Source: Fructobacillus ficulneus (GTDB lineage Bacteria; Bacillota; Bacilli; Lactobacillales; Lactobacillaceae). Taken from it: DNA of 40,769 nt. This document shows, in pieces, positions 16,227-18,401 of the stretch. Each line of letters begins with the position of its first letter. Within the stretch, counting starts at the first letter, position 1. The position numbers and the translations under genes were made by a program. The DNA lies in contig NZ_DF968005.1 of NCBI RefSeq assembly GCF_001047075.2, forward strand, positions 586,368-627,136, read 5' to 3'. The notes under the pieces are model-generated. The model made no database searches, was not told where the DNA came from, and saw only the letters and a list, made by a program, of their open reading frames with translations.

Positions 16227-16646
16227 TTAACGATCAACCTTAACAGTTGTTTCAGTAGTTGCTGCATGACGTTCTTGAACCAATACTGAATCGTTTGACA
16301 AAGCTGACTTTGCTTGTTCAGCAAGCTTTGAGAAAGTATCGAAGTCAGATACGGCCAAATCAGCCAACATCTTACGGTTCAATTGAACACCGGCCAAATC
16401 CAAGCCGTGCATCAACTTTGAGTATGACAAACCGTTCATGCGGGCGGCTGCGTTAATACGAGCAATCCACAACTTACGGAAGTCACGCTTACGGTTACGA
16501 CGGTCGCGGAAAGCGTACAAGTATGACTTGTACACTTGTTGCTTAGCAACCTTGTAATTGATGTGACGTTGGCCACGGTAACCCTTAGCCAACTTAATAA
16601 ACTTTTTACGACGTGCGCGTGAAACTGTACCACCCTTAACTCGCAT
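16227..16646 (-). CDS. rplT: 50S ribosomal protein L20
   Basis: This protein binds 23S rRNA and is needed early in 50S assembly; in several bacteria it also represses its own operon. The sequence [25 protein letters not shown] and the conserved [18 protein letters not shown] are diagnostic. The typical length is about 118 aa, while this one has 139: a C-terminal extension of about 20 residues (after [10 protein letters not shown]) is rich in Thr, Val and charged residues. AGGAGG lies 8 bases before the ATG. It is the last gene of the operon. Confidence 0.97.
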
Positions 16647-16691: not shown

Positions 16692-16889
16692 TTAGAGGGT
16701 AGACAACATCTTTGCGTACTTCTTGATGGTTGTCTTGTTCATCATTCGCGTACCACGCAATTGACGACGTTGCTTCTTTGTCTTACCGTGGAAACGGTGT
16801 GAAGTATAAGCTGAGGCTGACTTAAAGCCACCCTTAGCTGTCTTCTTGAAACGCTTTGCTGCAGCGCGATGAGTCTTCATCTTGGGCAT
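16692..16889 (-). CDS. rpmI: 50S ribosomal protein L35
   Basis: The 65-aa basic protein begins [20 protein letters not shown] and contains the family pattern [16 protein letters not shown], typical for L35. AGGAG lies 9 bases before the ATG. It sits between infC and rplT, the standard order. Confidence 0.97.
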
Positions 16890-16940: not shown

Positions 16941-17459
16941 TTAGCCCTTCTTAGGTGAAAGAACCAAGAACATTTGCCGGCCATCCATCTTAGCGCGTTG
17001 TTCAACCTTGGCAATATCATCCAATTCGTTGGCCATTCGTTCTAAGACTTCTCGTCCAATGTCTTGGTGAGTAATCATCCGACCGCGGAACCGCAAGTTT
17101 AGCTTAACCTTGTTACCTTTTTCAAGGAACTTGATAGCAGCCTTTTTACGTGTTTCGAAATCGCCAGAATCAATCACCGGAGACATCCGGACTTCTTTAA
17201 CCTGGACAACCTTTTGGTTTTTACGTTGTTCTTTTTGGCGCTTTTGCGCTTCGAACTTCGCTTTACCCCAGTCCATGATTTTAGCAACTGGTGGGACAGC
17301 GTTAGCCTGTACTAAGACCAAATCTTCTCCCTTGTCATCAGCGATGCGTTGCGCATCAGCAGTTGACATTTCCTCTTGCTTACCGTCATGAATCAATAAA
17401 ACTCGACTTGCTCGAATATTGTCGTTGATCAAATCAACTTGTCGTGGTTGGCGTGCTAT
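16941..17459 (-). CDS. infC: Translation initiation factor IF-3, probable ATA start
   Basis: IF-3 binds the 30S subunit, prevents premature 50S joining and rejects wrong start codons. The protein shows the N-domain ([13 protein letters not shown]), the linker rich in Lys/Gln, and the C-domain with VRMSPVID and [16 protein letters not shown]. The family N-terminus aligns at [14 protein letters not shown]. The codon there is ATA (17457-17459), 9 bases after a perfect GGAGG; no ATG, GTG or TTG is better placed. A rare start codon fits IF-3 autoregulation, known for infC of other bacteria (ATT in E. coli). The reading frame stays open to 17654, but that part is the attenuator leader, not coding. 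Length 172 aa. Confidence 0.93.
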
Positions 17460-17497
17460 GGCTAGGTACCTCCAAAATATTTTGTTGTGAACAACGA

Positions 17498-17532
17498 AGA
17501 AAAAAGTGGACGAACCGAAGTTCGCCCACTTT
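17498..17532 (-). terminator. Attenuator terminator in the infC leader
   Basis: AAGTGGGCGAAC pairs with GTTCGTCCACTT around a TTCG loop on the minus strand, followed by a T run. It lies between the promoter and the infC ribosome site, with two upstream hairpins (GAAGCG/GCTTC, GCCTAG/CTAGGC). The layout matches an L20-type attenuation leader, but the binding site itself is inferred. Confidence 0.85.
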
Positions 17533-17618
17533 ACCTGACTGTACATAAGTACAACGTGTATCTGCCTAGCAACAGCAATCATCACTAGGCGAGAAGCGGG
17601 CGCTTCTACTTGTTCAAC
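17533..17618 (-). promoter_or_regulatory. Structured leader of infC-rpmI-rplT, probably an L20 leader
   Basis: The transcript from about 17619 to the attenuator is about 87 bases and folds as two or more hairpins. In Bacillus-type operons such a leader binds L20 and shuts off transcription; I infer the same here from position and shape only. Confidence 0.6.
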
Positions 17619-17625
17619 AACAGTA

Positions 17626-17654
17626 ACTATACGTTCTTTTGGTGCTAAAGTCAA
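17626..17654 (-). promoter_or_regulatory. Promoter of infC-rpmI-rplT
   Basis: TTGACT (17649-17654) and TATAGT (17626-17631) are separated by exactly 17 bases on the minus strand. This strongly suggests that transcription starts near 17619 and that the region upstream of the IF-3 start is untranslated. Confidence 0.82.
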
Positions 17655-17678: not shown

Positions 17679-18326
17679 TTATTGTTCTGGTCGTTCAATA
17701 GCCAAATTTGCTAACAAGCGGCCACCAAAATGATAAACAACTAGGATGGCGAACTGGGCGCCCGCAAAGAAAATCACAAAGGCAGCCATATGTGTCGAAG
17801 CAGAGGCCTTCATATAGTCCCAAACCATCTGCAGGTTAGTAAAGACATCCCAGGAGTTCAACCGTAGGAACCGACCCAGGTAAATCCCAAAGGATGATAC
17901 TAGTGAAACCACTGCCAAAGTAATCAAGATAGCTGCATCTTTTTGTTTTGGTAGGTAGTGATACATGATAATGTCCAGCGACAAGGCTCCTAAGAACACA
18001 CCGATGAAAATCCCAGTAGCTAGGACTGAATAGTTAAAGTATTGGAAACGGACATCTAGGCCATCGCTGATGTACTGCAGATGAATAAAGTCCGTAATCA
18101 TGTACATAGTATTTGGGAAGAACAAGAGCCAAAGCGTTGAAAAAACGGCCCGCAAAACCTTCGTTGGTGTCACTAAGACCATTAAGGCAAAGTCCAGTGG
18201 TAAAATAGCCAAAAAGACATTCCACATTAAAAAGGTAAAATGCGTCGGTGTAACCTCGACAAAAAGAATAAAAGCAATGACCACTAAATGAACCATTATC
18301 ATATTTTTAACATTTTGCTTTACCAT
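17679..18326 (-). CDS. DUF1361 membrane protein
   Basis: This 215-aa protein has about six hydrophobic segments and the family motifs MWNVFLAILPLDFAL and WLLFFPNTMYMITDFIHL of DUF1361, a conserved membrane family without known function. The start at 18326 (MVKQNVKN) follows AAAGGA 10 bases upstream; an earlier TTG at 18371 has no site. There is no terminator before the infC promoter, so transcripts may read through. Confidence 0.82.
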   Translation of the reverse strand: MVKQNVKNMIMVHLVVIAFILFVEVTPTHFTFLMWNVFLAILPLDFALMVLVTPTKVLRAVFSTLWLLFFPNTMYMITDFIHLQYISDGLDVRFQYFNYSVLATGIFIGVFLGALSLDIIMYHYLPKQKDAAILITLAVVSLVSSFGIYLGRFLRLNSWDVFTNLQMVWDYMKASASTHMAAFVIFFAGAQFAILVVYHFGGRLLANLAIERPEQ

Positions 18327-18401
18327 TTGCCCGGTGTCCTTTAAAATATAGTTTGCTTGGCTTGTTAACAATCGACAATCCCAAGCACTTCAGTACCTAC
18401 T

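Follow-up and report, generated by a model that had tools for sequence, protein, structure and literature searches.

infC of Fructobacillus ficulneus is predicted to start at ATA, a codon found at this site in nearly all sampled Lactobacillales

From sequence comparisons, we conclude that the infC gene of Fructobacillus ficulneus, encoding translation initiation factor IF-3 (IF3), nearly certainly starts at an ATA codon (positions 17459-17457, minus strand, of the analysed stretch of 40,769 nucleotides, hereafter the window). Through this start, IF3 probably restrains its own synthesis, as in E. coli. The best explanation of the locus is very likely an AUA start with feedback from IF3, combined with control of the transcript through an L20_leader. 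On the minus strand, the promoter-like site is followed by the L20_leader, GGAGG, ATA, infC, rpmI and rplT:

17626..17654, minus strand: promoter-like site TTGACT-17-TATAGT (consensus match only).
17492..17617, minus strand: L20_leader (RF00558), attenuator 5' of infC; Rfam 67.3 bits against a gathering score of 58.7, E 3e-13.
17503..17532, minus strand: terminator-like hairpin of the L20_leader; 13-pair stem, then a T run.
17469..17473, minus strand: Shine-Dalgarno (SD) sequence GGAGG (GGAGGT) of infC.
17457..17459, minus strand: predicted ATA start codon of infC, nine bases 3' of GGAGG; kept in 13/13 genomes of the genus.
16941..17459, minus strand: infC, translation initiation factor IF-3; 172 codons including ATA; TIGR00168, PF05198, PF00707.
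16692..16889, minus strand: rpmI, ribosomal protein L35; TIGR00001.
16227..16646, minus strand: rplT, ribosomal protein L20; TIGR01032.

The product of infC matches NCBIfam TIGR00168 with 194.7 bits (cut-off 60) over residues 8-171, and contains complete IF3_N (PF05198) and IF3_C (PF00707) domains. The first-pass annotation had proposed the ATA start and a perfect GGAGG nine bases before it; both are borne out, the start by the alignment of the IF3 N-terminus with codon 17459-17457, by the SD spacing and by conservation, and the GGAGG by its presence at 17473-17469. The spacer between GGAGG and ATA is the nine bases TACCTAGCC, and the reading frame continues as GCA CGC CAA to a TAA stop at 16943-16941. 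The organism's own assembly contains one copy of the 16S 3' end, GGATCACCTCCTTTCT, in its usual form, so that the anti-SD sequence for GGAGGT is present. In six genera, that of the window and its five allies, the IF3 N-terminus is rich in Arg, Gln and Pro (17400-17459 in the window), and IF3_N matches there are far weaker, with E-values of about 1e-22 to 1e-24 compared with 1e-28 to 1e-35 for the remaining genera. Elsewhere in the locus, L20 (16227-16646) comprises 139 residues, extending about 25 past the end of the L20 model, and an L20-type protein of equal length with a similar tail occurs in 26/26 named loci. Upstream lies a minus-strand open reading frame (17679-18371) of 230 codons, membrane-protein-like and with no NCBIfam match.

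Conservation of ATA among relatives, which the first-pass annotation had suggested as a check, proved very strong. The arrangement of GGAGG, nine bases, ATA and GCA is exact in all 26 named loci (10 Fructobacillus, one 'Leuconostocaceae bacterium', two Convivina and 13 Leuconostoc), and ATA is present in 34/34 rows of the six allied genera, the window's own included. For a wider comparison, 248 Bacillota infC genes were analysed with a codon-blind start caller, which considers pairing with the 16S end and a spacing of 7-11 bases only and ignores codon identity. It called ATA in 159, ATT in 65 and ATC in 21 genes (245/248), with three others; these three rows (L150, L216 and L264), which have a weak SD, show ATA, ATT and ATC when read by eye. 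ATG, GTG or TTG was called at the infC site in none of the 248 rows. Of the 245 calls, 90 were tied, and the candidate with the spacing closest to nine bases was taken; the competing triplet, directly downstream, was GCA, GCT, AGC or another non-start codon. Among the rows without a tie, 155/156 were ATA, ATT or ATC.

The distribution of these codons follows taxonomy. The family search matched 249/251 genomes, and among the matches listed (about 150) 44 places were read, from 30 other genera of Lactobacillaceae, giving 43 ATA and one ATC. Further family rows came from the organism's own genome and 12 others of its genus, then 21, then 11 more; these last 11, from the last four genera, were all ATA, so that at least one row was obtained for all 40 genera among the family-search matches listed. 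Other Lactobacillales (36 new places, 118 genomes) yielded 28 ATA, five ATC and three ATT, and the named streptococci (n=53) 48 ATA and five ATC. Outside Lactobacillales, ATT was dominant in the sampled Bacilli (40 of 108 matched: 33 ATT, four ATC, three ATA) and Bacillota (40 of 109 matched: 29 ATT, seven ATC, four ATA), and one Bacillus row was ATT. The grand total of 259 rows comprises 171 ATA, 66 ATT and 22 ATC, not all from independent species, as several genomes are near-identical and some of the 53 named streptococci may also be present in the genome sample. Several Bacilli (G364, G402, G412, G447 and others) contain second, weaker IF3_N genes (about 66-78 bits), possibly IF3 paralogues.

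The call was examined with several controls. The same caller assigned ATG to 25/26 rpmI and 24/26 rplT genes, the remainder being miscalls to CCA and CGA, and is therefore without bias to AT-rich codons as such; for infC of E. coli K-12 it placed the annotated ATT among four tied best candidates. In an alignment of 29 sequences, codon 1 of infC is ATA in 29/29, while seven other invariant Ile columns contain ATA in 1/203 cases, and ATA makes up 5/150 Ile codons in ten open reading frames of the window. A mere Ile codon should vary, yet codon 1 is always ATA, which argues that ATA is not there by chance. Columns with identical codons are concentrated in the first eight codons (6/8, against 11/121 overall; hypergeometric 3e-6, kinship ignored). 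An in-frame stop occurs at most three codons upstream in 58/245 rows, with no ATG, GTG or TTG between stop and start; in the allied genus g39 the sequence is TAA TTC GTC ATA, closing the frame just upstream of the infC start.

The infC gene is the textbook example of a gene that senses its own product through a poor start codon. The locus studied here has the attributes of a self-controlled infC of the E. coli type, namely an IF3-encoding gene, a predicted near-cognate start and an SD sequence at usable distance. The ordinary initiator tRNA would read AUA, guided by the strong GGAGG at nine bases, and the protein would begin with fMet-Ala-Arg-Gln-Pro, or with Ala once Met is removed. A surplus of IF3 would reduce infC translation, because IF3 destabilises initiation complexes at codons other than AUG, GUG and UUG, and a shortage would increase it, by analogy with E. 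coli. The first-pass annotation had likewise interpreted ATA as a means of negative autoregulation, an interpretation that is very likely right. L20, acting through the L20_leader attenuator, would control transcription of infC-rpmI-rplT, and AUA would provide infC with a private translational control.

Comparable systems are described in several papers. The E. coli infC starts with AUU, through which IF3 controls itself, and this autoregulation is described as demonstrated (PMC5472188). It resembles infC of the window in its near-cognate start and SD sequence (GGAGG), but has AUU instead of AUA, follows thrS and lacks a match to the L20_leader family used here. For S. aureus, an AUA initiation peak at infC was obtained by retapamulin ribosome profiling (Ribo-Ret), and autoregulation was suggested by the authors (PMC13009471); codon and strong SD are as in the window, but S. 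aureus belongs to a different family, and the start was shown there by Ribo-Ret and is predicted here from sequence. The B. subtilis infC-rpmI-rplT operon shares gene order, leader family and a non-AUG start with that of the window (PMC6097659), but its infC starts with ATT instead of ATA (PMC6097659; PMC1805508). ATT starts are also described as experimentally confirmed in Listeria (PMC13068326) and as having peptide support in Xanthomonas (PMC5559785), and Streptomyces infC is stated to start with ATC (PMC5472188). The noncanonical GTC start of Streptomyces sigR, repressed by IF3, is a further likeness, although it concerns another gene, in which a sigma factor and not IF3 itself is controlled (PMC5472188).

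Alternatively, AUA could be the start but simply hold IF3 yield down by a constant amount, with no response to the level of IF3, which we regard as unlikely. Near-cognate starts do cut yield, to about 10% of AUG in S. aureus reporters in poor medium (PMC13009471), and a Listeria reporter ranked ATG > ATA > ATT (PMC13068326). The L20_leader, moreover, would already supply feedback to the operon. Such codons are, however, discriminated by IF3 itself, and the IF3 of the window has both domains; in E. coli, changing the infC AUU to AUG abolishes control, as reportedly found by Butler in 1987.

That translation begins elsewhere, either in the leader frame upstream or at a downstream TTG, is very improbable. 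The infC frame of the window is open upstream as far as TTG 17654, and the nearest in-frame canonical codon on that side is ATG 17546-17544, 87 nt from the ATA; this ATG lies within the L20_leader, before the terminator hairpin. The upstream frame consists of the L20_leader and its terminator, which argues against a start there, and stops interrupt it in relatives such as L005, L097 and L101. The nearest downstream canonical codon, TTG 17432-17430, has no SD sequence and is not conserved, being TTA, CTA or CTT in other loci, and was rejected. The earlier statement that no ATG, GTG or TTG lies in a suitable place therefore holds. A CTA/CTG start two codons upstream was also rejected, this codon being CTA in the window and CGA, CTG, CAG or TTC in other species. 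Among the 248 rows, 22 (21/245) have an ATG at most three codons upstream, 20 of these rows being from Lactobacillales other than the six allied genera, and 82 (81/245) have a GTG overlapping the SD; neither occurs in any of the 34 rows from the six allied genera. In the rows concerned the ATG usually lies three bases past GGAGG, which we judge too close, yet it is, like the GTG, in principle a possible start in those genomes. In L160, L161, L164, L167 and similar loci, ATG stands two codons before ATA and three bases after GGAGG; this ATG, present in many Lactobacillales outside Lactobacillaceae, is possibly a second or decoy start. No conserved hairpin hiding the SD was detected by RNAalifold in 27 sequences, the one structure being a downstream six-pair stem.

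The upstream frame had been interpreted as an attenuator leader with its own promoter, and the Rfam match and the terminator-like hairpin, which also speak against a start within the leader, agree with this. Its assignment to the L20_leader family, a result of the sequence comparison that was absent from the first-pass annotation, follows from a score above the gathering threshold, a position before infC-rpmI-rplT and a terminator-like end. As this is a known family, the operon is predicted to be under its established L20 control as well. In B. subtilis, L20 controls the infC-rpmI-rplT leader (PMC6097659; PMC1805508), binding to it and promoting termination (PMC6097659). When 20 loci were compared with the L20_leader model, 14 scored above threshold (12/12 Fructobacillus, one g7 and 1/3 g29); the six below it were two of Convivina type, one g39, one g16 and two g29. 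The promoter-like site at 17626..17654, a consensus match, has counterparts in aligned loci (TTGAC in 14/14, TATAGT or TATACT in 12/14). Locus L009 (40-233) has a marginal Rfam match to the Listeria sRNA rli28 (46.1 bits, threshold 45).

Variation at the third base of the start codon points to selection. A rough N-domain tree (70 residues, 248 rows) requires 26 or more substitutions between A, T and C at this base, compared with 70 or more when the labels are shuffled, and G was found in 0/259 rows. If all bases were equally free, the chance of 26 changes all missing G would be about 3e-5, a rough figure given the weak tree and unequal change rates; for these reasons the avoidance of G favours, but does not prove, retention of a non-AUG codon at this site. 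The genomes are related by descent, and their counts therefore overstate the number of independent observations, but an inherited leftover at a site of no importance is scarcely credible as an explanation of ATA, as the third base does move between A, T and C while G is absent from the rows read.

A non-AUG start of infC is a known phenomenon, and AUA has already been published for another family of Bacillota. No paper describing an ATA infC start in Leuconostoc, Lactobacillus or Fructobacillus was found in the open-licence literature, most subscription papers lying outside it. The survey by Gvozdjak and Samanta of genes preferring non-AUG starts (arXiv 2008.10758) may already cover ATA in infC. 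What the present analysis adds is the predicted near-universal AUA start of infC in the sampled Lactobacillales, together with the absence of G at its third base. Tentatively, and with somewhat more doubt than confidence, we suggest that AUA is the standard in nearly the whole of Lactobacillales, where it would have replaced the AUU common elsewhere in Bacillota, be maintained by selection against AUG, and give IF3 self-repression a different, weaker set point. If AUA is indeed order-wide, most current infC start annotations in Lactobacillales merit rechecking; gene finders restricted to ATG, GTG and TTG are unable to place this start correctly. The combination of an order-wide AUA, a third base limited to A, T or C in the rows read, and L20 control on one transcript would make the set points of AUA and AUU directly testable.
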